A stretch of 61,035 nucleotides of DNA, taken from IMG/VR virus record IMGVR_UViG_3300017729_000002, positions 1 to 61,035 of that record. One strand, given 5' to 3'. Positions 1,190 through 43,075 of the stretch are shown in pieces. The notes under the pieces were generated by a model. It worked only from the letters and a program-made list of their open reading frames with translations. It was not told the DNA's origin and did no database searches. The DNA is from a virus. The translations under genes and the position numbers were made by a program. Each line of letters begins with the position of its first letter. The stretch's first letter is position 1.

Positions 1190-2317
1190 ATGTCTATTAC
1201 AGCACAACACGAATCGACCTCCCCTATCGTAACCTCTAGCCAGATCGTCGGGCTCGCACAGATTGCATTTGCATCTGGCTCCATGTATCACATCGAGGGT
1301 CAAGGCGGTGGAGGTAAGACCTCCATCCTACAGCACGACCTAGCCACAGCCATGGGCATACCACCCGAGCGTGTCTTCAAGGTCAACTGCTCTGGCTACC
1401 CACCATCAGAGCTGGTCGGCTATGGTATCCCAGACAGCGAGACCCACGATATGTGGTTCGCCCGCCCAGAGCAATGGCCTCATGCCCTCACCGTAGGCAA
1501 GGACGAATGCCTACTCATCCTCGACGAGTTCACTCAGTGGGCACCCGAGGCACAGTCCTTATGTCGCTCACTCTTTGACCCAGTCAATGGCGTCCCGATG
1601 ATCGGCACCCATGAGCTCGGCAGTAATGTCCACATCTGTATCACATCCAACCGTGCGATAGATGGCTCGAGATCCCTGCGAGTTGATGCACCCACATCCA
1701 ACAGGTGCATGACTAACACCCTAGCCCCCGACCTCGATGACTGCCTAGCATACTACGCGAACCAAGGTCTAGCTACCTCACCGTTGTTTGCATTCCTCAA
1801 GTTTACCCAAGGTCTCAATGAGACTGACCACTTCAACCCTGCTATCGGCAAGGGCTGGGATGGCGGACCTCATGCCACCCCCCGTAGCTGGGAGTTTGCA
1901 CTCCGCTATACCAAGGGTCTCAAGCTAGACGCATTCAATCACTCCACCTTGGAGACTGCCATCAAGGGATGGGTCGGCATGAAGGCAGGGTCAGCCGCTT
2001 GTGCTTTCATCCATACCATCAGTGCATACATCCCACGCCTCAAACAGATCAGAGCAGGGCAAGAGTCTATGCCCAACGGTGACCCGTCGGCACAATACTC
2101 CATCGCCTACGCCGCCCTCCGCACAGCTAAGAAAGAGGTCGAGGATCTCGGGGGCATCGCGTCCGACGCGGTGGTCAGTGGCAACGTGGACTGGCTAGTA
2201 GATCGCATCATCATACCTGCCGAGGGTGAGCTAAGAGGCTGGGCATACCGAACTGCCCTAGCCATTGGCATACCCCTCGAGAAGCATGACCGCCGTGCAC
2301 AGATGCAGAGCCTGTAA
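1190..2317 (+). CDS. MoxR/CobS-like AAA+ ATPase
   Basis: A 375-residue AAA+ ATPase. Walker A is GQGGGGKT at residues 37-44. Walker B is LLILDE at 108-113, followed by the F-x-x-W-x-P-E and LFD-P-V-N-G loop typical of MoxR/CobS-type proteins. ITSN near residue 154 is a sensor 1-like segment. Members of this family act as ring ATPases that remodel protein or metal-cofactor complexes together with a VWA-domain partner, which is encoded next. The gene has its own sigma70-like promoter and is bounded by palindrome copies 2 and 3. No Shine-Dalgarno sequence precedes the ATG. The AAA+ assignment is firm; the phage substrate is unknown. Confidence 0.88.
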   Translation: MSITAQHESTSPIVTSSQIVGLAQIAFASGSMYHIEGQGGGGKTSILQHDLATAMGIPPERVFKVNCSGYPPSELVGYGIPDSETHDMWFARPEQWPHALTVGKDECLLILDEFTQWAPEAQSLCRSLFDPVNGVPMIGTHELGSNVHICITSNRAIDGSRSLRVDAPTSNRCMTNTLAPDLDDCLAYYANQGLATSPLFAFLKFTQGLNETDHFNPAIGKGWDGGPHATPRSWEFALRYTKGLKLDAFNHSTLETAIKGWVGMKAGSAACAFIHTISAYIPRLKQIRAGQESMPNGDPSAQYSIAYAALRTAKKEVEDLGGIASDAVVSGNVDWLVDRIIIPAEGELRGWAYRTALAIGIPLEKHDRRAQMQSL

Positions 2318-2327
2318 CCCGAACCCT

Positions 2328-2356
2328 GCTCCCTGTGATACCGTATCACAGGGAGC
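2328..2356 (+). repeat. Palindromic element copy 3 (core 2335-2349)
   Basis: The longest copy: GCTCCCTGTGATAC (2328-2341), a single C, then its exact 14-nt reverse complement (2343-2356). It sits between the MoxR stop (2317) and the VWA gene start (2379), leaving only 22 nt to the ATG. It could influence translation of the VWA gene as well as stabilise the MoxR 3' end. Confidence 0.9.
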
Positions 2357-2378
2357 CAACACTAAACTACTACAACCG

Positions 2379-7392: not shown

Positions 7393-10300
7393 TTACTGAG
7401 TCTTCTTTCTTTTGATTACTGAACCCTCGGACAGGAGGTACTTCTTGGGATTAGCATTAATCCATTTGTAAGCTTCCTTAATCCTAGCAAGTTTCATCTG
7501 CTTCTCTTCTTCCGTCTTGGCAGTAGCGATCATCCTCTGAGTAAAGTCAGGTGTCAGGTTGATGCCATCCATGACCCCGTTCATCAGGTTCTTAGTTCTA
7601 CGTTTTGATAACACCTCACTAGCCGTCTGGTAAATGTGCTTGTCAGACATCCCATACTTAGAAGCACCTCGCATCATTCTGATCGCGTGGTTAGACACAG
7701 CCTGTCTGTCCTCATACTCTTCCTCAAATATCTCAACAATGCTTTGTTCAGATATAGGCTTGAGGGATCGGAGTATGTTCTTTCGGGATTTAATATTAGC
7801 AAACTCTCGACGGCTCTCATATAGGTAGTTCGTAAGCTGACGCTCAGGATCAATGGTGTGCACCTTGAACGGTCTGACCGCGCCATATAATATATTCTGA
7901 ACAGAGTTCTCTGGGTCAGTATATACCTCGTCACTCGTAGCCGTCTGATATGCTTTGATCGCACGCTTCAAAATGTCAGGGCTATACGCCTCGTTAAACA
8001 AGAATGTCAATCTCTTGATAGCCGCCTCCCCTGTCGTGTCCGAAACATTCTCGACGATAGGTTTGTTGTTCGTCGGGTCCCTGTTCTCTATGACTGCAGT
8101 CAATGCACCCGCCGCGATCTGTTCATCTAGATACTGATCAACAAACAGACCATTGACTAAGGCCGCGCCCGCTTCACCAAACTCACCTCTGCCCATCTTC
8201 TCAAACGCCCTAACTACAGGGTCTGCGAGTAGAGCATATGGGTTGATGAATGTCAGGTCAATAGTCTTATACTTGTCACCACCTCCGAAGAACTTACTCC
8301 ACTTAGGTGGGATAGATAAGAATGAGTTGCCCCTTAGGTATTCGGGAGCAGTCTCACGTTGGAAGTCCTGCATGTCATCATCCTCGGTACCAGCTATACC
8401 TGCAAGTATAGAAGCCACTAGGCCCATGCTACCAACACCGACCGCGAGCATACCAACCATACGCTTCAACCCGCGAGCCTTGATAACACTACTATCACTC
8501 CTCATCTCCTGATTTGCGAGCTTGAATGTGTTGAACACCACCCTCGGAACCTCAGCCTTGAATCGGATAAAGGGTGCTACTAAAGCACCGATGCCATGTC
8601 TCGCTATGTCTTTAACAATAGGAGGAGCTTGGCTAGATGACTGTGCTGTCATCAAAACTTTATCCCGTGCCATTTGTTTGAGGTCCGAGTCAGAGTAGTC
8701 AGCGAATGAGCCACCTTCCTTCTCGGCCTTAGCCTTAGCTTTACGTAATACTTTAAGCTCGTTCTCGTAGTAGGCTATCTTATAGAAGCCGTCCACTGCA
8801 CCAGCCATCCGAGTGGCTACTTTATAAACCTTACCAAACGTAGCCTCCGTACCCTTAGCCGCAGCCTGAATTAATTTATTCTGCTCACTGATAACATCAG
8901 ACAAGTTACGGGTACCATCCAACATGTCCTTCATCAGCGTGGATCTTAGCTCATTATCAATAACACCCAGTGCGGACAGCTCCGTTAAGTAGGCGTCCAT
9001 CCTGTTCGGATCTTTGAGTTCGTCCCATACATACTTGGTCTTAGCAATCATGGATGCCCCGTTAACAAACCCTTGGGATGGCCCGAAGAACACGATGTTT
9101 GATAACATGTTTCGGATATAGAAACCTATCGAGCCTAATGTCTTAGTAGCCATAGACAAACCAGATGCCTGTCTTAGTGTGGATGTCATGAACCCAACTA
9201 CTTTTTCTGAATCGGTGTCGGTCTCGGTATTGATGTCAGACTTGAACAGTTCGACTAGCCCCTCGCGCACATGCTTTGGTGCATACATCCCACGGAGTGG
9301 GTTGTTAGCGGATGTCTTCTTGGGTGTGACCGCGTCCCAGTCTTCGTAGGCTTCGGGGTCTTTCTTCCGAGCGGCCTTCAGTTGCTTAGCCGTCATTAGG
9401 AATCCTTCTTTCTGACCCATCTTCTGGATGTTTGAGAACATAGCCTGATTCGCCGCCATGGTAGACACGGTTAGGAAGGTACGCACTAGGTTGTCTACTG
9501 TAGCTTCAGTACCAACCTCACCAAGCAACGCCCGTAGTCGGGGGTCTAGGTCTTTCTTCTCTTTGAGATTATCTTCAAGGATCTTAGCATCATCATTACT
9601 GACAACGTCATTCTTACCTGCTCTCTTATACTGGGCTAAGAACTTATCCACTTCGAGCTGACCCATGGTCTTCAGACTATCGGGGCTCTGCTCTTGGAAC
9701 TCTGCCTCTACAATTAGATCAGCTTCCTGAGGGTTGAATACCAGACCAGCGTTCTTAGCTTGCTCACGCAACTCGTCTCTTCTCTTTAACTTGAGATCCT
9801 CAATGAAATACTTACCAGCCTCTTCCCTTATGCCCGCATACTCAGGTGAATTACTAGCGTGCTCATGGAATCCAGTCTCAGTAAACATACGATACTGAGT
9901 GGTCAGGTAGATACCTTTCTGCACATCGAAGTGTGCTTTCATACCCTCGTCCATACCATAGAGATCCTTCATCTTCTCTTGGATAGGTTCGATCAACTCA
10001 GACCTAATATCCCGTATGGTCTGTGCCAACTCAGGAGATACCTCCTCAAGTTCAGCCAGAGCCTGAGTTTGCTCAGCTATAATTTGCTTGGCGATAACTT
10101 GTTTCTCAGCTAATAGCTTACCAAACTTATTATCAGCCGCTATCTGCTCGTCTAGTTTCCTCTCCTTTGTAGACTCATAAGTTGTCTGGGCAATGGTGTC
10201 TAGCTCTGCTTGATACTCGTCCTCGATCTCTTTGCGTCGTTCACGTGGGACAATCGCACTACGACCAATGGCCTTGTTGAGACGAGCAGTGTCCGAGCTA

Positions 10301-13300
10301 TCTAGCTGGTCACCATATGCTTCCTTCATGAGGCGATCAAACTTAGTCTTGAAACTGTTCGCTGTTTTCTCAGCCGCGTTCCTAAAGAACTGACGATTCT
10401 GAATCATACGCTCTATCCTAGGATCTAGGGCGCCCTTTAAGATTCTGCCAATTAAACTAGTCGGGGCATCATACCCACCTGTGGCATAGAACGGTAGCTC
10501 CAGCTGGTCAATGAACCCTGAGTAGTCCATCTTGTCTGGGGTAAATCCTTCGGACGGAGCGATAGCTGACTGTAATCCCAAGCTCCTACGGAACCTGACA
10601 TCCTCAGCTGTTTGCCCATATATCTTGTTACGGTAGCGGTTAATGATACCTTGGTCACTTGGCGATGTTATCTCCCAAGTCTCATTCCAATTATCATCTT
10701 GGATGATGTTGGCAAAAGCCTCGGTAGCACTATCAAAACCAAGATATTCCTGCCGCTTTAGTGCATTGCGAACTGACTGTGGCATCCTTTCCAAGTCCCC
10801 CCGCACTGCACCAGACATCAGAGCCTCCCCCATGAACTGCTCATCGTATTGATTAGGATTTCCAATAGCGGATTGGAGTCCACTTGTTCTAGGTGCGTCT
10901 TCAGTCTCCATGACCCATTCGGGGAGGAGGCCAATCTTCTGATCTGCAAAGATAGTTTCTTCACCCGTGGCCGTTTGATTAAACTCACCATAAGGACCAT
11001 AGTTCACCCAGCTGTTTTGTGCTCTGGTTTCTGTAGTTAGTGCTCTTCTCGCCGCCTTGGAATACATTGTAGAATGAGACCTCCATGCATTCTCTTCACC
11101 ACGTGCTCTAAATCCTACACCATTTCGGATGTGCCCGAAGTAATCATGTACTGCTCTAAATATATCATTTGCTAGTACTTCTCTGCCACCCCATGTATAT
11201 GGACTAACTTCTAGGAGTGGGTTATCTGAAGGGTCAAATCCACTATCAGAACCAAACCCGTCTTTAGTTCCAAAAACATACATGTGGTTGTTCTCAACCA
11301 CATCTAGTATTGCATTTCGAGGGTTCTTATATGGGTCTTTACCCGAGGGTGCAAACTCTAACTTAACTCCCGCCTCAATCATTGCATCATACTGAGCATA
11401 CGTCTCAGCGATTAATGCTTGATATGCCTCGGCTACTTCAGGGTCCGATGGGTTGTGTTGTAGTTTATCAAATGCTCTTGCAATCCTCGCCGCCCTCTTT
11501 TCATTGACTGGGGCATAGTATGATATAGGAGTTTCCCCAATACCTGTCTGTTGCTGGTATTTTTCAGCAACATCTTGCGCGGGTTTGTACCCAGTAAATA
11601 TGGTAGGAGTCCCATCGACCCTTACTGTGACTGGGAGCCCTTTGAGGTGACCCCCCGCGTCCCCGCCGTACGAATCTTTTGCACCTCCAACCACGAGATC
11701 TTCTCTTCGTTGTCTTGGGAGAGGGGCTCCGATTGCTGATTGAAGACTTCGTCCATCAGTATATCTGCGGGCGTCCTCTCTAGTTCCTTCGCGCTCACCC
11801 TCGACGCGTTCAGAAACCTCTCCGCGTCCTCTGGATTCGATGTAAGACTGGACACCTGTTCCGAGCTTAGCTTGTTTGTATTCTTTTTCATGTGTTCTTA
11901 ATGTTTGTTTTTGTGAAGTTGATAATACCTCGAGATCTAGGGTCTGGTCAAATAAATATAATCTTTCTTTTTGTAAGAACTTAATGATTGCCCGACCCTC
12001 AACAAATGTACGAGGTGGCCTATCCTTCGGATAAAAAACATCAGCCGCGTCATCAAAGCTAGACTTGAACGCTCCTGTTTCACCAGTCCACCCATTCTCA
12101 TCCCATGTTTGTTTCTCACCAAACCACACCACCGCCTGAAGATCGTCGGGAGACATGTTTAGTTTCTGGGCTGCTTCTCGGAACACTATCTGACCTAACG
12201 CGAAGTCTTGGTTTTTAACTCCCGTCTCTGCTTTGGGGATAATTCTCCACCTCTTTGTATTACCCGCGTATAAAATTCGGCGTAGAGTCCGTGCCGCCCA
12301 CACATCAATGGTGGCTTCAAGAGACTCCCCACGTAAGTTCATTGCAAATTGTGGTGTCTTAGGTGCTTTTGTATTTTCCCGCCACACTCCAGCAAGCACC
12401 CGCAGAGATGGCATACTATTTTGGCCAAACTTCTTTGTTGCATCATACGACTGGGTCAAGGTCATCCCTGACCGATCCACCCATCGCTCTACAATATCCT
12501 GTGCTTTGACAGTCTTGGCTTGTTTTGCGGTAATCACCTGACGCTTGACGGCTTCGGACACGAGGGTTCCCGCATTGATAATATCATACAGTTCTAGGTA
12601 CTGCTTTATGTTTGAGTCAAACTCACCTGATTTATACCTCTGATAAATTTCAGCGGCATATATAAAGTTTTGTTCGACCCCTGTGTTAGCAGACGTAGCT
12701 CCGAGTAAGTTAGTAAATATTACAAGATCTTCTTCTGTGAATATCTCTTTTAATCTGGATTGCATCCGAGTGTACCACCCCAGTCCCGCCGCTACATCGG
12801 GACGTTCCATCATTTTATTAGTCTCCTCAACGAGACGTTCAACCGCAGCATCGACAGCACCACTATCAATTAGTTTTTGAATGTCTTTACGCCCCCTTGG
12901 ACCGACTTCGTAGTGGAGGGAGTCATAGTCTAAAGGTTGTGAATAAGGCTGGTCTTTTTTAGGGGCGGTCTTAAAGAAGGGAGCGCCTATTAAGTTATAT
13001 TGTTGATTCTTAGGCTCTCCTTTGGCGTTAAGAGGAGTTACAGTAATCTCTTCTCCATACTCACTTGGCTTAGCATACCCATAGTTCTTAGCTATACCAG
13101 CTTGTAACCCGTCGGATCGAGTAAGGAACTCTTCTGGATCAGTAGTCAAACCTTCCTCAAGTTTGTCCGCGAGGACAGCCAAGCCTTGGTCTGGTCGTGT
13201 TGGGTCAAATGCAATAGATGATTCCTGAGTCCTGTATCCTGCTTTGATGGAACGTAGTTCGTGGATCAGGCTATTGACTGCCGAGTCCATGAATCGGTTA

Positions 13301-16300
13301 CCCTCACCGTTGTTAAGCTCCTTCTGGAACTTACGCATTTCAGCCATTCGTCGGAAGTATCCACTAACATAGCGGAACATGATCTTCATTAGCGATGGGT
13401 TGGTGCGGTAGAACGCCCAGTCTTGTTCTGTTGTAAAGCCACTAGTCAGAACTTCCATACGCATACGTAGGTGCTCTTCGGTTAGCCTAGCCTTCAGGTC
13501 CAGTAAGTCAGCCTGACCTTGTTCATCGAGATCGGTCGCACGAATCAGGGCAAGGGCTTCAGCGGCTTGCTCAGGTCGGTCAGCATAGTATGACTCAACG
13601 ATCTCTTCATACATGTAGTCAGGCAGGGTGTCAGCTAACTCGTCTATCTCCTCTTGTGTAAGTGTGTTAAAGGAAGCAACGTGACTTAGCTCATGTGACA
13701 TGACCTTTGCTACGATTAGTTTCGATGATGCTAATCCGAGGTCCTGAGTGAGGTTCATAATGAACGCGGGGTTGACTACAACCACACCGTCGCGGAACTC
13801 AGCCGCAGCATTGATGGTCCGATCAATTTCCAGCGGCACCTCTGGGGGGACTAACTCCCTAGCCACGCGGAGGAGAGCCTCTGCTTTTTGTTGAGCCTCA
13901 CTAATCTGAGCTCGGTTGGTTACGCCCTCCGTGTCAGTATCAACTTCCGTGAGTTCTGACACCAGCTCGTTTAAGTCTTCTGCCGCTTTTTGTGCTATTA
14001 GTTCATCCTCAGTAAGCTCTACGTCTTGCTGTGCCTCAGCCAATGATGGATCAGAGTATACAGCGGGTACACCAGTAGCTTTAAATGCGTCCGAAGTCGC
14101 CTTCATGTTTGCAGTAACCTCTGCGACTACTCGCTTGGCACGGGTCTTAGACCTAGGATCACTCACTGATACTGTTGACTGAGCTAAGTCAATCACGTCC
14201 GTCAGCGCATCAGCATACTTAGATGCCTCCTCAGTTGTCACGCCTTTACCGAAGAACTTAAATATAGAATCCATGATCTTACGGAAGAAACCACGACCAC
14301 CTTTATCAGCACCTAAACCTTTAATCTCTGCTTGGAGTTCTGGGCTTAGCATTATACCAGCCACAAACTCGTCCATGTTAACTAAGGAGTCCATCAGAGC
14401 GCTGTTGGATCGGTAACCAGCGGTACTAGCCGCCTCAGATATCTCTTGTCTTAGTGCATCGAGCCGCGTAACCGCATCCAGTTGGGCTGGGGTCAGTGTA
14501 GAACGTGGCTGGCTAAGGACTTTGGTCAGGGTAGCGTGTACATATTCCTCTAGGAGTACGTTGGATAGTCCGCGACCGTTGTGCCCATCTAAGTTCAGGA
14601 CGACTTCTAGACTTCCATCTGTCATGGTAGTCTGCATCCCAGCGAATGGCAGGTTCGCGCTAATGATTGTGAACTTCACATCACGTACCAATTCCACGTT
14701 CTCTAGGATCAGATTTGCAACTAACTTATGTGCAGTTGTCCCTGTCTCAGCAATCTTTTGAAGTGCACTTACGACACTATTTGAATCCCCAGACACCAAG
14801 CCTAGTCTTTCAGCTTCAGCTTGGTTAGCGGCCCTAGCAATCTTACGTTGTGACTCAGCAATGCGGGATCGGGACTGGTTCTTTTTGACGACGTTCCTTG
14901 CGTTGGTGTTGTGGTCTTTGTTCTGCCGTGGCGTGCCTGTACGTACGACATTGAACCCTTCAGTAATTACCCTGTATAGGTCAGGGTTGCTGGACTCGAG
15001 ACTTCCTAAAATTGTCTGTAGATTTTTACTACCTACGTTTTGATCAAGAGCTCGTTGGGTCGTCTCAGCGATCTCCTTGGTCTCCATCCTCGATATTACA
15101 TTAGCGGCATCTTGGGAACCTCCCGCTAATTCTGTAGCCAGATCTACGAGTATGGCTCTAGCTTCATCACTCTCATATAAAGATTCAGCTACGTCGCTAT
15201 CTTGATCAATAGCATTATTAGCCTCATCACGGCTTACGGGATCTGTGCTAACAGCTGGTATGGATGTGTCCGTATCCTCGTTAAACTGCGATCTCTCCGC
15301 ATTGTTCTGCGTGTCTCTAACCCTCTTAGCTTTCTGCTGCTTCCTGAAGTTATCGCTAGATAGCTGAGCAATGAAACTCATAGGAGGCATCGTATTCTCC
15401 TTTAACAAGGGGTGGTTAACTATTTCTTGTAAAACAAAGTTGGTAGTTCTTTTTGGGAAGCTACTACCAGCAGTCATAGATGACACTTGTTTCAGTTGTT
15501 CGTTTAACTTAGCACCCGTGAGCTCCCTATACCTAGTCTGCTCTACGAAAGCTTGAATTAACCTGCTTCGGTTAGTTGCAGTGTCTTGCCTCAGTTGTAA
15601 ATTCCCTGTTGGCTTTCCCTCTTGGTCTACCTCAATCGTCCCGTCCTTATTTAATTTAGCAGTTAATAGTTTACCGACAGGACCGTCGAGAATGTTCTTT
15701 CTAGCAACGTATGCATTAGCGACTAGCATAGTCTCAACTACAAAACGCTGTGATGCAGCATCAAAGAAATCACCTTCGAGCGGGGCTACACCTTTACGGT
15801 TCATTAGGTTCTTCAACGTACCACGAGAAGAACTTTTTTCAGGATCCGAACTCATCGCGTTACTGATGAACGTAGTTACGTTGTTGATGAAATCCCCAAC
15901 CGTAAATACTTCACCATCTTGTACTTTGGATTTTGTTCCATCAGCTTGAGGAGCTTCGTCTATTTCTAATGGGGTTCCATAAAACGACTGATCAAATAAG
16001 CCAGCCCCCGCTGACTTCTTTAGTAGTATGTTGTAGTTGGCTTGTGTGGACGTTACTTTATCTGGATCTGATCCATCCTGAAGCATACCCTCGTTCTCAT
16101 TATTTACAGACAGCACACTAAGGACTCGCCTTGTGTCTGGGTCTGCGATGATAGAAGGGTTTAGTTCCACGCCCTTAGGGACGATTACAGTCTTACCTGC
16201 TTTGAGGTATTCCGCTGTAAGTACAGGGTCATTGTCAAACACGCCACGACCACTAGAGTCTAGGAATCCTTTGACAGGAGCTCCCTTTGAGCTAGACATC

Positions 16301-19300
16301 TTTTTGGTGTGCGGGTTGTAATGCACCTGCTTACGACCCTCAAATACTTTACCACCCTCTGGCTCAGTGAGTGGTGTGATGGGCCACGTGTCATAAATCT
16401 GACGAGCCACCTCAGTAGATACTCTGGGGTAGTAACCTTTAGGTTTCTTGGAATACTCGAAGCCTGACTTTGTTTTGGCAGTTACGCGTGACGGGAAGCC
16501 AGAGGCCACTAGTGTGTCAAATGATACTTGGTCTTCCTCAGTATTGAGAAACTCGAGTATCTCTGTTACTGGAGCTTCAGCAGTACCTGCTTCCATGGGG
16601 ATGTCAATGTCCTCCTCGGACTCAACGACACGACCCTCCTTGTCTAGATTGATCAGCATCTGTTCATTGACCTCTTCTAAGTCTACCCCCTGTTCAGCCG
16701 CTTCTTCAATCTCTTCGGGGGTGACTGGAGCCAGCGCATCAATATCAGCTCCACGGACATTAGTTTCGTCCCCTAGGTTCAGCTCTTGTTGAACTGCTTG
16801 TGACTCCTCTTCGGTAAGGTTGTCTAGTATGGGAGCCGATTTTACGATTACCTTTTCTTCAACCTGTTGCCGCTCAAATAACTGTAGCTGAACTTCTTCA
16901 AGCGTTCTTTCAACCGACTCTGGGTCTACATTACTGTCCAAATTTTCTAGGGTTGCTCCCACTAGCTCAGACATAATTGGCATCCCGACCCAGTCACTAG
17001 TCGCAGGATCTCTGACACCGATAACATAGTTCTCTAAGTCCAGCATGTAGTCTGCATCGGGACCCTTCAGGAGGTTCTCCTCAGCCTCTTCAGGTGTTAA
17101 GCGTCCCGCAAGAGCACCTTCGCCCTCTTGGTTGAGCCAGTCTGCCATGCGCTGACGTGTACCCACTTCATCTAATGTTACGTCATTAGACTCAGGGAAA
17201 CCTACAATGTTTCCATCCTCATCTTTTGTTAGTGTTCCATCCACAACAGCCTCGGCTATTTGTAATGAGCGAAACAACCCCGATGTCTCCGCAGGATCGA
17301 CCTCTTCAAACAATTTGTATTGATCATCTGTCATCTCCTCTTCGACGAGATAATCATAACGCGCTTGTTGCTCCTCATTTAATTGAGCTGAGTCAGACCC
17401 TTCGGGCGTAAACCATGAGTTCAGGGGGAGCGTAGTCAGTTTATCTGTATCGTGTGATAACTTCTGACTTTGAGATCTAGGATCTTGTGGCGCGGGGGTA
17501 GTAGTGTCAGCTTGAGGGGCATCAGGATCTAGCTTAAGGGTATCCTCGATCTCTTTCACCCTTTGAAGTTGATCTGGTTTGAAGAAAGTTTGCTCTCGTG
17601 CCAACTCTTTAATACCGTTCAGTTCCTCTCGAAGTTCATCTTCTCGAGCTTTTTGTGCAGCTGGACCCGCTAAAGGTTTTGGAACAAATGGGGCTGGTTC
17701 GCTAGGTGCCCCCTCCTCTGCCGACGCTGCTGCTTCAGTAACCTCAGGTGTAGCACTAGGATCTAACTCTTGTGTCAGCTTAGCCCTAGCCTCATCAGCT
17801 CTTTTACCTCGAGCAGGACCTGTCAATATATCACGGACCACTTGTCCAGTAATTGGTGCGGCCGCTGTATCTAGTTCTGCGACGACATTGTCTACAAAAT
17901 CGAGCTCTAACTTCGCTTGATCTCTACGTGACTGTTCACGTAAACCAGATCTACTTGCTAACTTTTGGTATGCCCCCATACCACTACCAATGATGCCCCC
18001 AGTCAGACCTGCTCGGTAAGCTGATTCTAATCGAGCCATTCCATCAGTGCTCTGGTCAGTGTAGTAGTCAGTGATGTAAGAGTTAACGAACTCATCTAAA
18101 CCCTCCTCAAGGGCTTCCGAAGTAAACCCATCAAATGCTTCGCTGACAATATTCTTCTGACCCGCAAACTTCCCAGCGTTCTTAGCCATGTCTTTGTGGA
18201 TTTTGCCCACAGCATTCGCGAAGATCTTCACTGAGTCTTCCGACCCAAGTTTGACCCTAGACCCTATGTTGCCTAGCCGCTCCACGACACCTAACGCTTC
18301 CCGCTTGGTCATTCCTTTAATGAATGCATCCTCGATACCACCCTTACCAATGGATCTGAAGGCCTTCATAATACCAATGGTGGAGAATCCAGATACTATC
18401 CCAGATCCGAAAGCCCTATCATGCTTCTCTTCGTGAGACATGTCAGGATTCATCTGTGTGAGTGTGTCATATGTCGCAGCATAGTTAGCACCCGCAGACC
18501 TAGTAAATGCGGGGGTATTGATTGCGGCGTCTTGCGTCCACTTATTGGAAGCTATCTTAGCAAACGAATCAATAGCTCCCATGGCACCTTTCTTGATCTC
18601 ATCCGTAGCTGGCTCTAGGATGTAACCATCCTTAACTAATCTCTTCAACGCTACCTCCGAGGACTCCTCTACTCCATCCACAACCAAACGCTTAAAGGGT
18701 GAGTTCAAGGTCATACTCTTAACAATACCTTTAGTCAAAGACTTAGTGGTCAGTTTGGCTCCCTGTTTAGCTGCGATCAGCATTGCACCACCAGCGCCAG
18801 TAGTTGCAGTTAGTGCAGCGGTCGCTGCCATGTCAGCAAAGACAGGTCCAATAGTCTCCGCCACATCTTGCCCTATACCAAATTCAACACCAAACAATCT
18901 TGCTCGCTCACGGCGTTGGGCATTGCGTTGGTTAGCTTCGATAAGTTGTTCTCTGGCCCACTCATTACCAGCCATTGCCATTGGTGCTGTCACCATCGAA
19001 ACAAATCCCTGTCCCCAAGCAGCTCCTACACCCTTAGCGCGTGCTTCAAATTGACTGTAGTTGTCTGGATCAGAGAGAAAATTCTCCAATATAACGTGGT
19101 CCTTAGTGCCAGCGGCCCTACCTTCTTGCAATGTACCTAACCATTCCTCAGCATCAGCGCCTTTGCTAAGCAGCTCATTGGCTGAGTCAAAGTTTTGAGC
19201 AGACATCGCCTCACGGTTGGCTCTAAGCTGAGCCTTATCCGCTTCAGTAAGATCAGTGTTTGCATTAATAGCCTCTTCAAACTTAGCGACGTTGGAGACA

Positions 19301-20565
19301 AGTGAGCGGTGCATCTGAGCAGGACCATAGCCGTACTTCTTGATGTTCATCCCTATCTTAGTTGGGTCGTCCTGCAATTTGAACTGCCCAGAACCTAATA
19401 ATTGATCGCCAGCGCGTTGCGTCAACACGGTTTTAAATTCATCAAGATCCATGTCCATGCTACCGAGAGCAGGGTCCATAGAACTCATGGTGCTGTAGAT
19501 TGACATGGTCTCATTATTGATGAGCTTCTCTAATCTCTGCACATTTTCCTTATCGTCGTCTATGACTGCCTCGTCATACGACTTGTATAATTTAACAAAT
19601 CTGTCGAACTGCTTTTGCGAGACTCCTTGTTGTTCCGAGGAACCACTCTTAGTCTCCTGTGTAGGAGGTGCTATTAACTCAGCGTCGAGTATACTGTCAA
19701 CCATATCACCCAGTTCTTGTTTACGGATGATATCATATGTGGGATTACTGAAGCCATCAGGCGTCTCGAGTTGCTTGGAAATATGAGCGGCATCCTGCAA
19801 GGTAACACCATATGGCTTAGATACATCAATGATCTCTTTAGCATTCATGCCTTGTGCAGCTTTTCCAATCTGCACATATGAAGTACCATCTTCTCGTCTA
19901 ATACGAGCTGCCGCTACGCGACCGTCTAAGAGTGCGCTCTTAGCTGCGTTGTCATAAAGCTTGGTTTGCAAGTATCCCTCCGCCTTGCTTTTCCAAAATT
20001 CAAGGTCATCTTTAATTTCTTGGTTTGCCTCGGTAGCCTCTGGGTCAGTTGCCATTGAGTTAGCAAAGGCTTTCTGTTTGGCACGATAAGTGATCACGTC
20101 TTCCCATACCTGTTCTGGGGTAGTGTCCTCAGGTAAATTGTCTAAGTTGTTAGCAGCGATTGCTGTAATCTCAGCTGATGGGGATTCCGCTATGAGCTTA
20201 AGACTAGCCTCTGTAGATAGCTCAGGCGCAGGGAATAGCTTTGCTGTGTTGACTTCATCCCCATCCTCGGGGTTGACTAGACCTCTTTGTACAGCCGCGC
20301 CGTAGAGTGTGTTCCTTAGATCCTGCTCAAAGCCAACCGTGGCTTGGTTTTTTTCCGCGTGCTTCCCTCTAAGATAATCCCCGTAATTTTGCAAATCACC
20401 CAGCTCGTCACCACTAGCATTGTTTACATTCCAGTCATCGAAAGAGTCAAACTCAACTTGCTCAGGAGGAACCGTAGGTTCTTCTGTTGCTTCTGGGTTA
20501 GTAGCATCATTAAGGTGTCCCCAAGGGGTCGGCGATATCGGAGCGAAGGATTTGACGTCAGGCAT
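7393..20565 (-). CDS. Giant polyvalent virion/injected protein (4,390 residues)
   Basis: One uninterrupted frame of 13.2 kb, over a fifth of the window. Visible parts: an acidic N-terminal region; hydrophobic segments near residues 510-600 and 880-910; a degenerate zincin-like EEYVH near 2006; a clear HELSH zincin motif at about 2287-2291; a domain at about 2490-2930; a domain with HDYFGH at about 2950-3220; a short domain at 3235-3325; then long helical segments and a hydrophobic stretch near 4030-4055 before a basic C-terminus. Boundaries are marked by a repeated LQ-S/A-A/G-I linker. This matches polyvalent phage proteins that are packaged and injected with the DNA; the C-terminus resembles LPD38-type domains. 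No RNA polymerase motif was seen. The enzymatic roles are inferred. Confidence 0.8.
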   Translation of the reverse strand: MPDVKSFAPISPTPWGHLNDATNPEATEEPTVPPEQVEFDSFDDWNVNNASGDELGDLQNYGDYLRGKHAEKNQATVGFEQDLRNTLYGAAVQRGLVNPEDGDEVNTAKLFPAPELSTEASLKLIAESPSAEITAIAANNLDNLPEDTTPEQVWEDVITYRAKQKAFANSMATDPEATEANQEIKDDLEFWKSKAEGYLQTKLYDNAAKSALLDGRVAAARIRREDGTSYVQIGKAAQGMNAKEIIDVSKPYGVTLQDAAHISKQLETPDGFSNPTYDIIRKQELGDMVDSILDAELIAPPTQETKSGSSEQQGVSQKQFDRFVKLYKSYDEAVIDDDKENVQRLEKLINNETMSIYSTMSSMDPALGSMDMDLDEFKTVLTQRAGDQLLGSGQFKLQDDPTKIGMNIKKYGYGPAQMHRSLVSNVAKFEEAINANTDLTEADKAQLRANREAMSAQNFDSANELLSKGADAEEWLGTLQEGRAAGTKDHVILENFLSDPDNYSQFEARAKGVGAAWGQGFVSMVTAPMAMAGNEWAREQLIEANQRNAQRRERARLFGVEFGIGQDVAETIGPVFADMAATAALTATTGAGGAMLIAAKQGAKLTTKSLTKGIVKSMTLNSPFKRLVVDGVEESSEVALKRLVKDGYILEPATDEIKKGAMGAIDSFAKIASNKWTQDAAINTPAFTRSAGANYAATYDTLTQMNPDMSHEEKHDRAFGSGIVSGFSTIGIMKAFRSIGKGGIEDAFIKGMTKREALGVVERLGNIGSRVKLGSEDSVKIFANAVGKIHKDMAKNAGKFAGQKNIVSEAFDGFTSEALEEGLDEFVNSYITDYYTDQSTDGMARLESAYRAGLTGGIIGSGMGAYQKLASRSGLREQSRRDQAKLELDFVDNVVAELDTAAAPITGQVVRDILTGPARGKRADEARAKLTQELDPSATPEVTEAAASAEEGAPSEPAPFVPKPLAGPAAQKAREDELREELNGIKELAREQTFFKPDQLQRVKEIEDTLKLDPDAPQADTTTPAPQDPRSQSQKLSHDTDKLTTLPLNSWFTPEGSDSAQLNEEQQARYDYLVEEEMTDDQYKLFEEVDPAETSGLFRSLQIAEAVVDGTLTKDEDGNIVGFPESNDVTLDEVGTRQRMADWLNQEGEGALAGRLTPEEAEENLLKGPDADYMLDLENYVIGVRDPATSDWVGMPIMSELVGATLENLDSNVDPESVERTLEEVQLQLFERQQVEEKVIVKSAPILDNLTEEESQAVQQELNLGDETNVRGADIDALAPVTPEEIEEAAEQGVDLEEVNEQMLINLDKEGRVVESEEDIDIPMEAGTAEAPVTEILEFLNTEEDQVSFDTLVASGFPSRVTAKTKSGFEYSKKPKGYYPRVSTEVARQIYDTWPITPLTEPEGGKVFEGRKQVHYNPHTKKMSSSKGAPVKGFLDSSGRGVFDNDPVLTAEYLKAGKTVIVPKGVELNPSIIADPDTRRVLSVLSVNNENEGMLQDGSDPDKVTSTQANYNILLKKSAGAGLFDQSFYGTPLEIDEAPQADGTKSKVQDGEVFTVGDFINNVTTFISNAMSSDPEKSSSRGTLKNLMNRKGVAPLEGDFFDAASQRFVVETMLVANAYVARKNILDGPVGKLLTAKLNKDGTIEVDQEGKPTGNLQLRQDTATNRSRLIQAFVEQTRYRELTGAKLNEQLKQVSSMTAGSSFPKRTTNFVLQEIVNHPLLKENTMPPMSFIAQLSSDNFRKQQKAKRVRDTQNNAERSQFNEDTDTSIPAVSTDPVSRDEANNAIDQDSDVAESLYESDEARAILVDLATELAGGSQDAANVISRMETKEIAETTQRALDQNVGSKNLQTILGSLESSNPDLYRVITEGFNVVRTGTPRQNKDHNTNARNVVKKNQSRSRIAESQRKIARAANQAEAERLGLVSGDSNSVVSALQKIAETGTTAHKLVANLILENVELVRDVKFTIISANLPFAGMQTTMTDGSLEVVLNLDGHNGRGLSNVLLEEYVHATLTKVLSQPRSTLTPAQLDAVTRLDALRQEISEAASTAGYRSNSALMDSLVNMDEFVAGIMLSPELQAEIKGLGADKGGRGFFRKIMDSIFKFFGKGVTTEEASKYADALTDVIDLAQSTVSVSDPRSKTRAKRVVAEVTANMKATSDAFKATGVPAVYSDPSLAEAQQDVELTEDELIAQKAAEDLNELVSELTEVDTDTEGVTNRAQISEAQQKAEALLRVARELVPPEVPLEIDRTINAAAEFRDGVVVVNPAFIMNLTQDLGLASSKLIVAKVMSHELSHVASFNTLTQEEIDELADTLPDYMYEEIVESYYADRPEQAAEALALIRATDLDEQGQADLLDLKARLTEEHLRMRMEVLTSGFTTEQDWAFYRTNPSLMKIMFRYVSGYFRRMAEMRKFQKELNNGEGNRFMDSAVNSLIHELRSIKAGYRTQESSIAFDPTRPDQGLAVLADKLEEGLTTDPEEFLTRSDGLQAGIAKNYGYAKPSEYGEEITVTPLNAKGEPKNQQYNLIGAPFFKTAPKKDQPYSQPLDYDSLHYEVGPRGRKDIQKLIDSGAVDAAVERLVEETNKMMERPDVAAGLGWYTRMQSRLKEIFTEEDLVIFTNLLGATSANTGVEQNFIYAAEIYQRYKSGEFDSNIKQYLELYDIINAGTLVSEAVKRQVITAKQAKTVKAQDIVERWVDRSGMTLTQSYDATKKFGQNSMPSLRVLAGVWRENTKAPKTPQFAMNLRGESLEATIDVWAARTLRRILYAGNTKRWRIIPKAETGVKNQDFALGQIVFREAAQKLNMSPDDLQAVVWFGEKQTWDENGWTGETGAFKSSFDDAADVFYPKDRPPRTFVEGRAIIKFLQKERLYLFDQTLDLEVLSTSQKQTLRTHEKEYKQAKLGTGVQSYIESRGRGEVSERVEGEREGTREDARRYTDGRSLQSAIGAPLPRQRREDLVVGGAKDSYGGDAGGHLKGLPVTVRVDGTPTIFTGYKPAQDVAEKYQQQTGIGETPISYYAPVNEKRAARIARAFDKLQHNPSDPEVAEAYQALIAETYAQYDAMIEAGVKLEFAPSGKDPYKNPRNAILDVVENNHMYVFGTKDGFGSDSGFDPSDNPLLEVSPYTWGGREVLANDIFRAVHDYFGHIRNGVGFRARGEENAWRSHSTMYSKAARRALTTETRAQNSWVNYGPYGEFNQTATGEETIFADQKIGLLPEWVMETEDAPRTSGLQSAIGNPNQYDEQFMGEALMSGAVRGDLERMPQSVRNALKRQEYLGFDSATEAFANIIQDDNWNETWEITSPSDQGIINRYRNKIYGQTAEDVRFRRSLGLQSAIAPSEGFTPDKMDYSGFIDQLELPFYATGGYDAPTSLIGRILKGALDPRIERMIQNRQFFRNAAEKTANSFKTKFDRLMKEAYGDQLDSSDTARLNKAIGRSAIVPRERRKEIEDEYQAELDTIAQTTYESTKERKLDEQIAADNKFGKLLAEKQVIAKQIIAEQTQALAELEEVSPELAQTIRDIRSELIEPIQEKMKDLYGMDEGMKAHFDVQKGIYLTTQYRMFTETGFHEHASNSPEYAGIREEAGKYFIEDLKLKRRDELREQAKNAGLVFNPQEADLIVEAEFQEQSPDSLKTMGQLEVDKFLAQYKRAGKNDVVSNDDAKILEDNLKEKKDLDPRLRALLGEVGTEATVDNLVRTFLTVSTMAANQAMFSNIQKMGQKEGFLMTAKQLKAARKKDPEAYEDWDAVTPKKTSANNPLRGMYAPKHVREGLVELFKSDINTETDTDSEKVVGFMTSTLRQASGLSMATKTLGSIGFYIRNMLSNIVFFGPSQGFVNGASMIAKTKYVWDELKDPNRMDAYLTELSALGVIDNELRSTLMKDMLDGTRNLSDVISEQNKLIQAAAKGTEATFGKVYKVATRMAGAVDGFYKIAYYENELKVLRKAKAKAEKEGGSFADYSDSDLKQMARDKVLMTAQSSSQAPPIVKDIARHGIGALVAPFIRFKAEVPRVVFNTFKLANQEMRSDSSVIKARGLKRMVGMLAVGVGSMGLVASILAGIAGTEDDDMQDFQRETAPEYLRGNSFLSIPPKWSKFFGGGDKYKTIDLTFINPYALLADPVVRAFEKMGRGEFGEAGAALVNGLFVDQYLDEQIAAGALTAVIENRDPTNNKPIVENVSDTTGEAAIKRLTFLFNEAYSPDILKRAIKAYQTATSDEVYTDPENSVQNILYGAVRPFKVHTIDPERQLTNYLYESRREFANIKSRKNILRSLKPISEQSIVEIFEEEYEDRQAVSNHAIRMMRGASKYGMSDKHIYQTASEVLSKRRTKNLMNGVMDGINLTPDFTQRMIATAKTEEEKQMKLARIKEAYKWINANPKKYLLSEGSVIKRKKTQ

Positions 20566-20594: not shown

Positions 20595-21590
20595 TTACAA
20601 TCCAGTTCTATTTTGTAAAGATGATTTTTGTCGTGGTAATACTGTGGGTGCAGAAGTTTGATATCCTGCTCTATTGTATTGCTTAGATCTATATGCTTTT
20701 TCTTGATCTGTAACGTATACGGAGAGCTGATCACGGTAACCTTCTACTGCGTCCCTTAATTCTGCGTCAGTCATACCCTTGTCTCTAACTTCAGATGGTC
20801 TCATACCCGTGAACTTGGCATAGTGACCCACTAGGATGTTCCTAGCCTTGGCTGGCATTGCGGGCTCGTCTCCGTAATCCTTCGCCTCAATATAAGCACC
20901 TTCAAGATCTGAATCCAGATCCTCTAGTTGGTCTTTTGACTCCTCTAAATCCTTAACCCCATACTTCGCGATCTCTTTCTGTGTTTCTATTTCGATTGCG
21001 GAGTCATAAAACGACTGCGCTTCTGCGACACGTTGAGCAGTATCTTCTTCATTTAACCCAAGAGCTTTGGCTCTTGATTTCACTGCTGCAATATTACCAG
21101 CTTCAATAGCTGGCCTCATCATGTTGGTTTGCTTGTCAATCTTAGCCTGTTCTTTCGCTATGCGAGTCTTCTCAGCGTTTATTTTACCAGTGGCCGCAGT
21201 ATACAAGCTATTTGCCGATGGGGTGCTAAACAATTCGGGGTTCTCTAATCGGTAGTTGGCTAACCCTTCGGCGCGATCTTCTGGGCTACCTTCCCCACTA
21301 GTAATCCCAATAAGATTATTTGATATCTGACCAATCCTAGAGTCCTGCTCTCGTTTCCTACGAGCATCATCCCTCCGCTTCTGTAAGGCTTCGAGGTTCA
21401 TCTGGTATGTCAGATCTCGATTACGCTGCTGATCAATTGCTGCATAGATATCCATGGTCTCCTTGATCTCCTTATTGGATGGGCCAAATGCCTTGTTCAA
21501 GTAAGAAGCCTCTGATCCTTTAAGACCAGAGGAGAAGAACCGATTCCTCATCGGCGTGATATCATTTTCTATTGAGAAGCTATTTGGCAT
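20595..21590 (-). CDS. Probable virion protein, helical
   Basis: 331 residues, highly charged, largely alpha-helical and coiled-coil (many R, K, E, Q, A), no catalytic motif. It lies in a co-directional block with the terminase and the giant protein, 29 nt before the latter. It is probably an internal or ejection protein packaged with it. This role rests on position and composition only. Confidence 0.55.
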   Translation of the reverse strand: MPNSFSIENDITPMRNRFFSSGLKGSEASYLNKAFGPSNKEIKETMDIYAAIDQQRNRDLTYQMNLEALQKRRDDARRKREQDSRIGQISNNLIGITSGEGSPEDRAEGLANYRLENPELFSTPSANSLYTAATGKINAEKTRIAKEQAKIDKQTNMMRPAIEAGNIAAVKSRAKALGLNEEDTAQRVAEAQSFYDSAIEIETQKEIAKYGVKDLEESKDQLEDLDSDLEGAYIEAKDYGDEPAMPAKARNILVGHYAKFTGMRPSEVRDKGMTDAELRDAVEGYRDQLSVYVTDQEKAYRSKQYNRAGYQTSAPTVLPRQKSSLQNRTGL

Positions 21591-21596
21591 ATGCTG

Positions 21597-22184
21597 TTAT
21601 CTTGTAGAGGTGCGATCCATACGTGTGTCCAAGAGTTTCCCTTCTTCGTATTCCCGAATGCGTTCTTGTGGGGTTCCTAGGTATTGAGAGCTATTGGGAT
21701 CCAGTCGTGCATCCATGCCAGAACCAGTTTCTGACTTTATGAAGTTACTGGGCATCATTAATGCTGGGTGCCCCAGATCATAACTACTACCTCCAACAAC
21801 GGCAGGGCCTCTACCTACACGGGGTTCACCCATATCAATACGGGGTCTGTTTCTGTTTCTGTTTCTGTTTCTGTTACGGAGAAACTCCTCATAAGCATCT
21901 TGTGCTGCACTACCCATACCACCTTTGGCCATGGCATACTGCTCAGCATCGACAAATGCTTGGGACTTAACCGTCGGGTGACCAGCAAGCTTCATCATCT
22001 CTGCTTGTGCAAACATTTGGTTGGCCTCCTTCTTGGCTCCAGCCTTACGTAACTTCCTCGCGGCTACACGTGCCATGTGGTAATCAGATGTAATCCTGCG
22101 TGGCTTATCACTGAGGCTACCCGTACGGAGAGAGGATTTCCACTCACCATCCTGAAGTTTTTGATATTTGCTTTTCCTACTCAT
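21597..22184 (-). CDS. Probable virion protein with Arg-Asn repeat
   Basis: 195 residues, basic N-terminus (MSRKSKYQKLQDGEWKSSLR), helical middle, then a tract of alternating Arg and Asn encoded by a TTTCTG hexanucleotide repeat on the plus strand at about 21847-21874. The C-terminal part is Gly- and Pro-rich. Likely structural or DNA-associated. It is separated from its neighbours by 6 and 12 nt. Function unknown. Confidence 0.55.
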   Translation of the reverse strand: MSRKSKYQKLQDGEWKSSLRTGSLSDKPRRITSDYHMARVAARKLRKAGAKKEANQMFAQAEMMKLAGHPTVKSQAFVDAEQYAMAKGGMGSAAQDAYEEFLRNRNRNRNRNRPRIDMGEPRVGRGPAVVGGSSYDLGHPALMMPSNFIKSETGSGMDARLDPNSSQYLGTPQERIREYEEGKLLDTRMDRTSTR

Positions 22185-22196: not shown

Positions 22197-23231
22197 TTAA
22201 GTGTTCCTTCTACGGAGACCTCCTCTAGCACCAAACTGATTATCATCACGTCTTCCCAGCCTGTTCATAAAGTTATCCATTTCTTTACGCCCTATGCCGA
22301 GTGCTTTAGCCCTGCTTTGGTCTCCCTTATTGAATGTGTAGCTACCGCCTGATCTATTAAGTTGATTCTCGAGGTATGATCCAAATTCTTGGCGGCCTTT
22401 TAATCGTTCCTTGGGGTCTGTAATAACGGTGGGGGCATTACTCGCGGTGGCTCGCGCTGAGGATGATGCTTGGGGGCTCGCGGGTGGTGCCATGAACTCA
22501 CGCGGAGTTAGGTCAAGACTTGTATCACCAAAACTCGTGCCAGTTATTTCACCCATTGGTTTAAGCACCGTATTCTCAGGGGCTGCTGCATCTGCTACCG
22601 CTGGCGCTGCGTCCTGTGGCTTAAGCTTAGCTAATTCTCCTAACGCTGCCTTACGATCTACATTGCGCTGTTTGAGGCGAGCTTCATATTGGTCTCCTGT
22701 CTCACCTTCCATAGCGCGTCCCATTGAACCACCGAACTTCTCATTAAAATCTTTCTGGGCAGCTAAGAAGTCATTCGCTCCCTCTGGTGCTGCTGGTGCT
22801 GCGGGTGCTTCAGGGGCAGCTGGGCTGTCCTCACTTTCTCTACCCAGTCCAGTCTCTGCTCTGGCTAGTTCAATGTCAGCCATAACTTTATTGGCCTGTT
22901 TCATGAGATCACTAGGACCCGCCGCACGCTTTGCATCAATTTTATCTAAGAAGTCTTGGGCACCTTGCTTTTCCTGTTGGAATTCACTAGGCTCTTTTTC
23001 TACGGCATCCCGTTGCTCACGCGCTTTGGATACAAAGTCGGCCTTCGCACCTGCTGCGGCACCACCCACCATAGGTCCCTTATAATCTTTTAGAATATCT
23101 TTATCTTCCTTATCCCGCTCAGCACGAGCGGCTTGGGTCGCGGCTTTGCTTTCTTCATTGGCGCGTTGACTAGCTGCGTATTCTGCTGCTTTCTTTTTTT
23201 TCTCTTCTGGTGTGAGTGGTATTGCCGCCAT
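22197..23231 (-). CDS. Probable virion protein, Ala/Glu-rich
   Basis: 344 residues, with long charged helices in the first half (EEKKKKAAEYAASQRANEES) and an Ala- and Pro-rich linker (PAAPEAPAAPAAPEG) at about residues 132-146. The C-terminus is basic with an RGGLRRR tail. It is the first gene behind a sigma70-like minus-strand promoter and heads the block leading to the giant protein. Function unknown; an internal head protein is plausible. Confidence 0.55.
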   Translation of the reverse strand: MAAIPLTPEEKKKKAAEYAASQRANEESKAATQAARAERDKEDKDILKDYKGPMVGGAAAGAKADFVSKAREQRDAVEKEPSEFQQEKQGAQDFLDKIDAKRAAGPSDLMKQANKVMADIELARAETGLGRESEDSPAAPEAPAAPAAPEGANDFLAAQKDFNEKFGGSMGRAMEGETGDQYEARLKQRNVDRKAALGELAKLKPQDAAPAVADAAAPENTVLKPMGEITGTSFGDTSLDLTPREFMAPPASPQASSSARATASNAPTVITDPKERLKGRQEFGSYLENQLNRSGGSYTFNKGDQSRAKALGIGRKEMDNFMNRLGRRDDNQFGARGGLRRRNT

Positions 23232-23296: not shown

Positions 23297-25075
23297 TCAC
23301 GGTAAGTAAGCCGCATCATTATACAGAGCAGACTTCAAGTGCTTCATTGTCTTAGGCGGTTTCCGATATGCTTGATTTGGATCTTCTTCTCTGGGCTCCA
23401 ATGCGATCAAACCATGCCTCTGACGAGCGCAGTCCAACGCTAGAAACGCCGCATCTGCAAGGTCAGGTGACTGACCTAGCCTCTGTTTGAACTCTGGCTT
23501 AGATTCGATCCTGACCTTTAGCGATCCTGTCTTGATCATCTCATAGGTCCGACCAACAATCTCCTGAGCAAGATCTGAATCTACACCAAATAATTGTCGG
23601 GTCCTCATCAGCTCTTTCCCTACGAACCATAGTTCTGACACTCGGTTGGTGTATAACTCCACCCCTGTCATCTGACTATTTACGGAGACCCGCTTATCTG
23701 ATGGCTTGCCACCAAAGGTAACACGTAAGAAACGGGGTGACCACTCACCAGCGAGCACGTCACAGAATGAAGATCCAGCACCAGTTGCATCCACCGCCAG
23801 ATCATCGGGGGCAACACCCTCCTTCTCGCAGATCTTTTTGATCTGCTGTACGAGCTGGTAAGATCTTGGCACTGCCTTGTTTGTCGCATCGTCGTTCAGC
23901 TGGTAACTCTTATGGAACTCAAATACATATTGCCCCACATCGTCGGTGCCTACATACCCCGTGTATAGAACTGTGCGGTCACCACCGTTGGTAAACGCGG
24001 GGTCAAGACCAGCCACTTTGATGGGCTTAGACCCCCAACGAACCTTGTTCATGCAGCCACTCTTTGTAATCTCAGTTTCGCTGTATATGCCCTCGTCCTC
24101 GTCGGAGTCAAAGAACACCGCACGAACCATTCGCATGTAACCCCTTGAGCTTGTGCCGAGTAGCTCACGTTTCTCTGCGATCTGGTCAGCACGAGGTAGG
24201 TATGGGTATATTGTTTCACCAGCTAAGATATTAGGACTACGCTCACCGTCGAGTCGGATGTATTTACCACCCCACTTAGTCCTCCAGCCATCATCGACAT
24301 TGGTGTCTACGGAATCCCAGCCATCCTCTGGCTCAGACCAAACACCAAACGCATCAAACTTAGAGCTCGGGTTGGACATACCAATCATGCGGAACTCGGG
24401 GTTTGATGACAAGTTGGTCAGACCTGCGTGTACCACAGCCTCGGAGATCTCAGAAAGCTCGTCACCAATAACGATGACCTTCCTGTTCTTAATACCAATA
24501 AACTTACCTACCGCTTCTCGAGTCCTGCTTTTCTCTGCCGCAATCAGGGACAGACCAGACTTCTCTAAGAGCGTACCATGTTCATTGACGTATGCCACGT
24601 TACCTATTGAATCCCGAATCCTGAAAGGCATATCATCTATCACTGCCAGTAAGCTGATGATAGAACCCCAAATCCTTTTTCGTGCTTCACGCAACGTGGT
24701 TGAAGTAATCAGGACTAAGGTATCCTTTGGCTGGGACAAGCAGTTAACGATGGCATAAGCAGCCATGGTGTGAGACTTGGATGAGGATGCAGCACCGCCC
24801 ACAGCGAGGAACTTATTCTCAAGGCAGCTGCGGATAATCATCTTAGCCCATGGGTTTTGCTGCATTAAGGGTTCAGGAATGTCGGGGCGGTTCCATAGGA
24901 TGTCACAAATACGCCAGAAGTAATACTCCTTGGCTTTTGTAAGCTCATGGTTTGCGAAGCCAAAGAGCAGGGCGGTCAGCAAACTGGTTGGTGGGATAAT
25001 TAGACCACCTACATCCATGTCCGTTGAGGATGGTTTAATGTGCGGCTCGTATTTGCTGTCTAATTTAATGTCCAT
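23297..25075 (-). CDS. terL: Terminase large subunit
   Basis: 592 residues from the ATG at 25075; a longer frame to 25114 is less likely because it would enter the promoter of the divergent gene. The ATPase half has a Walker A-like GGAASSSKS near residues 91-99 and a Walker B VIVIGDELSE near 195-205. The nuclease half begins with AGLDPAFTNGGD near 355 and has a second acidic cluster DLAVDATGAG near 425. The motor packages DNA through the portal. The putative small subunit is divergently encoded 42 nt away, while the portal is 30 kb off, an unusual split of the packaging genes. Confidence 0.9.
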   Translation of the reverse strand: MDIKLDSKYEPHIKPSSTDMDVGGLIIPPTSLLTALLFGFANHELTKAKEYYFWRICDILWNRPDIPEPLMQQNPWAKMIIRSCLENKFLAVGGAASSSKSHTMAAYAIVNCLSQPKDTLVLITSTTLREARKRIWGSIISLLAVIDDMPFRIRDSIGNVAYVNEHGTLLEKSGLSLIAAEKSRTREAVGKFIGIKNRKVIVIGDELSEISEAVVHAGLTNLSSNPEFRMIGMSNPSSKFDAFGVWSEPEDGWDSVDTNVDDGWRTKWGGKYIRLDGERSPNILAGETIYPYLPRADQIAEKRELLGTSSRGYMRMVRAVFFDSDEDEGIYSETEITKSGCMNKVRWGSKPIKVAGLDPAFTNGGDRTVLYTGYVGTDDVGQYVFEFHKSYQLNDDATNKAVPRSYQLVQQIKKICEKEGVAPDDLAVDATGAGSSFCDVLAGEWSPRFLRVTFGGKPSDKRVSVNSQMTGVELYTNRVSELWFVGKELMRTRQLFGVDSDLAQEIVGRTYEMIKTGSLKVRIESKPEFKQRLGQSPDLADAAFLALDCARQRHGLIALEPREEDPNQAYRKPPKTMKHLKSALYNDAAYLP

Positions 25076-25081
25076 TAAAGA

Positions 25082-25110
25082 TTGAATACATTGTAAATAC
25101 CAAGTATACT
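25082..25110 (+). promoter_or_regulatory. Promoter for a probably leaderless terS-like mRNA
   Basis: TTGAAT (25082-25087), a 17-nt spacer and TATACT (25105-25110). The predicted start is at 25117 or 25118, and the ATG begins at 25118, so the mRNA would have essentially no 5' leader. Confidence 0.55.
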
Positions 25111-25117
25111 CCAACCC

Positions 25118-41903: not shown

Positions 41904-43075
<1,172 letters not shown>

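Follow-up and report, generated by a model that had tools for sequence, protein, structure and literature searches.

A giant reading frame in a late minus-strand block

The window analyzed here is the whole 61,035-base stretch of DNA, positions 1 to 61,035 of virus record IMGVR_UViG_3300017729_000002. An ORF scan of this window revealed a 4,390-aa frame that runs without interruption on the minus strand (from 20565 to 7393) and occupies 13,173 of the 61,035 bases, or 21.6% of the record, in agreement with the original prediction of a single protein making up a fifth of the genome, for which the strand had not been given. The plus strand of the same interval contains stops throughout and has no comparable frame. 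Since nine independently assembled viral contigs from other metagenomes carry the same ORF, either as single ORFs of 3,911–4,469 aa aligned from end to end or with a cut end, the giant ORF is not an assembly artefact.

The giant gene is located in a late minus-strand block, after the gene for the large terminase (TerL) and three small genes, and the order TerL–344–195–331–giant is kept in near relatives (Table 1). This is a phage structural gene neighborhood, as is characteristic of polyvalent proteins. While TerL is well conserved among the relatives, the giant shows only ~22–44% identity there, the closest relatives aside, and it therefore diverges much faster than TerL.

Table 1. Features of the giant protein and of its gene block (window coordinates; residue numbers refer to the giant protein)
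Feature	Position	Strand	Basis
TerL, large terminase, first in conserved block	23297..25114	-	phrog_2, E=3.5e-17; 67–94% identical in relatives
344-aa gene, partner in near relatives	22197..23231	-	
195-aa gene, conserved partner	21597..22184	-	relatives
331-aa gene directly upstream of giant, conserved partner	20595..21590	-	tblastn, 27–51% identity to relatives
Giant ORF, 4,390 aa, ATG start	7393..20565	-	single-ORF relatives
N module, residues 58–922, conserved	17800..20394	-	HMM match in nearly all relatives
M module, residues 1356–1474, conserved	16144..16500	-	family profile
Zincin-like domain 1, residues 1896–2130	14176..14880	-	PhiM1 gp48 homology; N4 vRNAP peptidase-region fold
EEYVH, degenerate HExxH of zincin 1, residues 2006–2010	14536..14550	-	motif
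Zincin-like domain 2, residues 2239–2459	13189..13851	-	model; ArdC and selecase best fold matches, Z 4–6
HELSH, intact HExxH of zincin 2, residues 2291–2295	13681..13695	-	motif
Linker 1, LQAGIA, residues 2487–2492	13090..13107	-	repeated hexapeptide
DUF7178 module, residues 2591–2815	12121..12795	-	Pfam PF23802, E=7.8e-10; 222 viral places
Linker 2, LQSAIG, residues 2941–2946	11728..11745	-	repeated hexapeptide
HDYFGH module, about residues 2974–3224, strongly conserved	10894..11646	-	phrog_3170; 71 viral loci
HDYFGH motif, residues 3140–3145	11131..11148	-	alignment
Linker 3, LQSAIG, residues 3230–3235	10861..10878	-	repeated hexapeptide
Short module, ~95 aa, residues 3236–3330	10576..10860	-	between linkers 3 and 4
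Linker 4, LQSAIA, residues 3331–3336, C-module start	10558..10575	-	repeated hexapeptide
C module, residues 3342–4364, virion-associated	7474..10542	-	phi18:3 gp123 relative; phrog_22602
Sole strongly hydrophobic stretch, residues 4033–4060	8386..8469	-	hydropathy

Conserved scaffold, zincin-like domains, and variable slot

The N and C modules and the zincin region were used as scan queries, which initially yielded ~30 further distinct relatives, and a later scan added 25 more that were <70% identical to the earlier ones and to each other; many of these relatives have incomplete ORFs that extend past the end of the locus or contig sequence. More than 30 diverged viral contigs carry single ORFs with the same layout, mostly of 3.3–4.9 kaa where complete, and no relatives of the giant were found in bacterial genomes. 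In layout profiles that started from the initial nine proteins and were then iterated over 38 representatives, the order N, M, zincin 1, zincin 2, variable slot, and C is the same nearly everywhere in the family, with the slot between zincin 2 and C varying in length from ~30 to 1,500 residues. The N module had no match in Pfam or the PDB, and a Pfam search of the whole chain gave only DUF7178 above the cutoff, with no LPD or other catalogued polyvalent domain.

The N, M, two zincin, DUF7178, HDYFGH, and C modules bear out the several globular domains anticipated by the original prediction, of which three other details called for correction. Two zincin-type motifs had been noticed, and HEEKH at 711 and HELSH at 2291 are indeed present, but only the latter lies in a zincin fold, as residue 711 falls within the N module; in the other zincin-like domain, the motif at 2006 reads EEYVH, which is not a literal HExxH. 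Neither the membrane-like segments nor the hydrophobic C-terminal segment could be confirmed: over 19 residues, a mean hydropathy above 1.4 is reached only at residues 4033–4060, and this stretch stands ~330 residues before the C terminus, inside the C module.

A profile built from 27 sequences of the two zincin regions was compared with solved structures and matched PhiM1 gp48 (8vb2_A; E=9.2e-9 over ~120 residues) and the internal virion protein 9sfn (E=2.2e-6); in both alignments, which fall on zincin 1, the HExxH positions coincide. PhiM1 gp48 is a tetrameric ejection protein of a podovirus (8VB2, PMC11440229), and the zincin 1 region is homologous to it and to 9SFN; gp48 has an intact LLHEAAHA motif in this region. 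The two proteins are far shorter than the giant (1,263 and 1,337 aa versus 4,390), with no second zincin or effector slot matched. In the PhiM1 study, the segment Asp268–Asp528, which contains the zincin-matched stretch, is described as an endolysin/exotransglycosidase-like domain (PMC11440229).

The two zincin domains were modeled with AlphaFold (pLDDT 77), and the best fold match of zincin 1 obtained with VIA was residues 2124–2366 of the N4 virion RNA polymerase (vRNAP) gp50 (Z 9.0, 184 residues, rmsd 4.0), a segment that we equate with what Iyer et al. (PMC5512222) called the MPTase region. VIA also gave weaker matches of both domains to peptidases (ArdC, selecase, and SprT-type), and Foldseek alone gave nothing significant for the two-zincin model. 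The match of zincin 1 to N4 was seen with VIA only, and the sequence similarity to ejection proteins supports it independently.

The motifs themselves vary across the family. In the first set of relatives, zincin 2 has EExxH except in the giant and its nearest relative, and zincin 1 has HExxH in some proteins and EExxH in others; HExxH in zincin 2 was more frequent in the new set. The second Glu and the last His of the motifs are retained nearly throughout. The first nine proteins had suggested reciprocal inactivation, with exactly one HExxH intact, a rule that failed on wider sampling. Many relatives have EExxH in both zincin domains, and an active internal protease is therefore not general. 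In the giant, an HExxH within a zincin-fold domain is present (HELSH in zincin 2), and this domain would be a candidate active metallopeptidase.

In the giant, the slot contains the DUF7178 module, the HDYFGH module, and a shorter segment of ~95 residues. Many other phage proteins carry DUF7178 (222 places) or the HDYFGH module (71 loci), and DUF7178 is found in the slot of other relatives too. A motif resemblance of DUF7178 to HhH-GPD DNA glycosylases found no support, and its TPR matches in the PDB were dismissed as 20-residue matches to repeat proteins. An alignment of 29 diverse members of the HDYFGH family showed that the HDYFGH motif is nearly invariant and is accompanied by a GE.NAW..H / ETRGQNSW block. 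The model of this module (pLDDT 82.6, pTM 0.83) had no match in the PDB by Foldseek or VIA, while 21 viral predicted structures matched it, including polyvalent and mycobacteriophage proteins. Aromatic amino acid hydroxylases have an HDxFGH iron-ligand motif. The assignment of the module to these enzymes was not adopted, as they appeared in Foldseek only with non-significant scores (E 2–7) and in VIA not at all; the module is probably metal-binding. It represents a widespread, strongly conserved phage domain without a recognized fold match.

Other modules occupy the slot in relatives: an ADP-ribosyltransferase (ART-PolyVal, E=4.6e-36) in L038 and a GNAT-like domain, with weak matches, in L037. 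In Pseudoalteromonas phage Y3, a shorter protein fuses an ADP-ribosyltransferase-like domain to the C module. The original prediction held that a lack of similarity to known effector domains would speak against it; no such similarity was found for the giant itself, whereas the relatives have the ADP-ribosyltransferase and GNAT-like modules.

The C module relates the giant to virion proteins. It is shared, at 21–23% identity, with Cellulophaga phage phi18:3 gp123 (1,935 aa) and Pseudoalteromonas phage Y3 ORF31 (1,027 aa), whose match to the giant is limited to this module; gp123 is the last gene of its own late block, and its record is annotated as structural from MS/MS virion proteomics. In addition, phrog_22602, "virion structural protein," matches 9 of 34 aligned C-module members. 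PhiM1 gp48 belongs to a complex that resides in the head until it is ejected upon infection (PMC11440229). On the basis of these ejection-protein and virion-protein homologies, the giant is very probably carried inside the virus head and enters the host along with the DNA. The polyvalent, modular, and virion-delivered character that had been proposed for it is likewise very probable, given the homology of zincin 1 to ejection proteins, the C-module relative annotated from virion MS/MS, and the swapped ADP-ribosyltransferase and GNAT-like modules.

Repeated peptides at the module junctions

Four copies of a hexapeptide mark the ends of the slot and the ends of the modules in it, and this linker peptide is absent from all other ORFs of the window. 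Homologous boundaries in many relatives carry different peptides that are likewise repeated within each protein: VGTSFG in G001–G003, ATQ(F/L)GA in G004–G007, LETxxG (e.g. LETRFG) in L070 and L074, LQSRxG (e.g. LQSRYG) in L071 and L076, S(E/G)LGAT in L038 and L039, and LGSGLGP in L290. Most of them fit the loose form hydrophobic-x-(S/T)-x-hydrophobic-G. In the segment immediately preceding the C module, 17 of 32 proteins showed this form versus 0.81 expected, some of these proteins having served to define it; among new proteins, it was found in 3 of 23 versus 0.53 expected. A permissive regular expression for repeats gave too much noise to be told from shuffled sequences.

The repetition was also assessed by a motif-free test, in which the stretch after zincin 2 was compared with the stretch before the C module and same-protein pairs were scored against cross-protein pairs. 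Same-protein pairs scored 21.5 and cross-protein pairs 16.8 in 13 clusters (permutation p<2e-4), and this result was replicated with 17 new distinct proteins (19.6 versus 17.0; p=0.001). Among the linker repeats of the giant, 9 of 26 synonymous codons were shared versus 8.2 expected, which is the chance rate and indicates that the peptide rather than the DNA is conserved; codons also differed at about the chance rate in L070, L071, G005, and G006. Conversely, codon sharing exceeded expectation in G001–G003, G008, and L074, and DNA-level copying is thus possible in G001–G003. No description of such junction peptides was found in the open-access literature, our coverage of which was incomplete.

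Proposed function and alternative explanations

Together, these results suggest that the giant is a polyvalent ejection protein. At the level of sequence, the scaffold (N, M, two zincins, and C) is conserved and the slot carries exchangeable, lineage-specific modules. The conserved N, zincin, and C modules would package the giant into the head, from which it would exit with the DNA. The weakest step of the proposal is that the linker peptides would be recognition sites, most likely ones at which proteolysis, during maturation or after injection, would free the modules. The giant would then act as a phage polyprotein, bringing several activities into play early in infection. Taken as one explanation, a polyvalent ejection protein with a swappable slot and with linkers that are cleaved to release the modules seems probable to us. 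That the giants of the family are true polyproteins, in which a protease recognizes the junction hexapeptide and effector swaps between linkers give new injected cargo, is a more tentative proposal, which we would put at somewhat below an even chance.

The recurrence of the linkers within a chain, their differences between lineages, and their location at junctions are what co-evolution with a trans-acting recognizer would leave. Cleavage would be our first choice for the function of the linkers, because processing of polyvalent proteins by their own zincin domains was predicted in 2017 and P1 DdrB undergoes processing ahead of packaging (PMC5512222); the packaging of N4 vRNAP in unprocessed form despite its peptidase domain counts against it (Iyer et al. 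2017, PMC5512222). Across 13 clusters, an association between matched linkers and an intact HExxH was noticed post hoc. When stated beforehand, the prediction that an intact HExxH goes with matched linkers failed in 17 new relatives (matched linkers in 2 of 12 intact versus 2 of 5 non-intact; Fisher p=0.95).

This missing tie to an intact protease motif is consistent with the linkers being docking or packaging peptides that bind the same lineage-specific partner, the chain being folded into the head and threaded out; candidate partners would include the portal, a scaffold, and small ejection proteins, for instance the 331-aa product. The conserved 331-aa neighbor gene agrees with docking, as does the recurrence of linkers within a protein together with their divergence between lineages, which co-evolution with any trans partner predicts. 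The position at module junctions, however, fits cutting as well or better, and we consider docking a fair rival but the less likely reading. Relatives do exchange modules at linker points, and the linkers could be mere seams whose similarity is maintained because recombination there swaps modules. The codon sharing beyond expectation in G001–G003 agrees with such seams, but the giant, L070, L071, G005, and G006 encode the same residues with different codons, at about chance, as expected if the peptide and not the DNA is conserved; this explanation is a distinctly unlikely one.

Two further alternatives concern the protein as a whole. A large virion-stabilizing or tail protein with no enzymatic role would agree with the designation of the C-module relatives as virion structural proteins and with the mostly degenerate zincin motifs, but it accounts poorly for the ejection-protein homology and for a slot that takes exchangeable enzyme modules such as the ADP-ribosyltransferase, and we regard it as very improbable. 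The giant also resembles N4 gp50 (9PNR/9PNT) in its size class, in being the last gene of a minus-strand late operon, and in the fold of the peptidase region shared with zincin 1, and it might be a divergent N4-type virion RNA polymerase instead of an effector carrier. No polymerase family was detected in it, residues 923–1895 having been searched at the sequence level, and its N and C modules have no sequence match to gp50; comparison of the N, M/zincin, and C profiles with gp50 gave nothing significant apart from a weak local HELVH match. A polymerase of this type is hardly to be expected here.

The preferred reading, a polyvalent ejection protein with a swappable slot, agrees with the polyvalent proteins of Iyer et al. 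(2017, PMC5512222) in that the giant is very long, multidomain, predicted to be injected, and equipped with zincin-like domains, and in that the slot of its relatives includes ART-PolyVal. It differs from those proteins in its conserved scaffold and in its repeated linker, which is specific to each lineage, and Pfam detected no catalogued polyvalent domain in it; the paper never uses the word "linker" (PMC5512222). The giants are best filed as an undescribed family in which two known kinds meet, phage ejection proteins and polyvalent proteins. The novelty lies in the family, in junction peptides that recur within a protein and are specific to the lineage, and in the HDYFGH module without a recognized fold match. 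The repeated junction peptide provides concrete, testable sites, allows such chains to be divided into modules by sequence alone, and offers a handle on how phages swap injected effectors. For most polyvalent proteins, to our knowledge, no cut sites have been proposed.

Repeated short linkers of their own were also observed in unrelated phage polyvalent proteins, the longest ORFs of L200–L203, L122, L151, L162, and L179, with QFxP occurring 6 times in L200 and 8 times in L203, AxFLP 6 times in L201, and RYMPE 3 times in L122. This suggests that repeated short linkers may be a general feature of phage polyvalent proteins; if true, their presence in unrelated proteins would point to a general rule for phage cargo proteins.

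Further features were noted elsewhere in the window. The region 1190–3818 encodes an AAA-ATPase-like protein and, after it, one that combines HEALH with a VWA-like part; a 12-base tandem repeat there encodes GDDQ units. A sulfotransferase-like ORF at 42236–43075 ends in a run of ~15 glutamines derived from a TTG/CAA trinucleotide tract, which also yields a poly-T run in the overlapping next ORF. A tail-like protein of 1,226 aa at 46446–50126 contains tandem repeats of 111 and 78 bases, and a 104-aa ORF with HEVSH at 59653–59967 may be a separate metallopeptidase.
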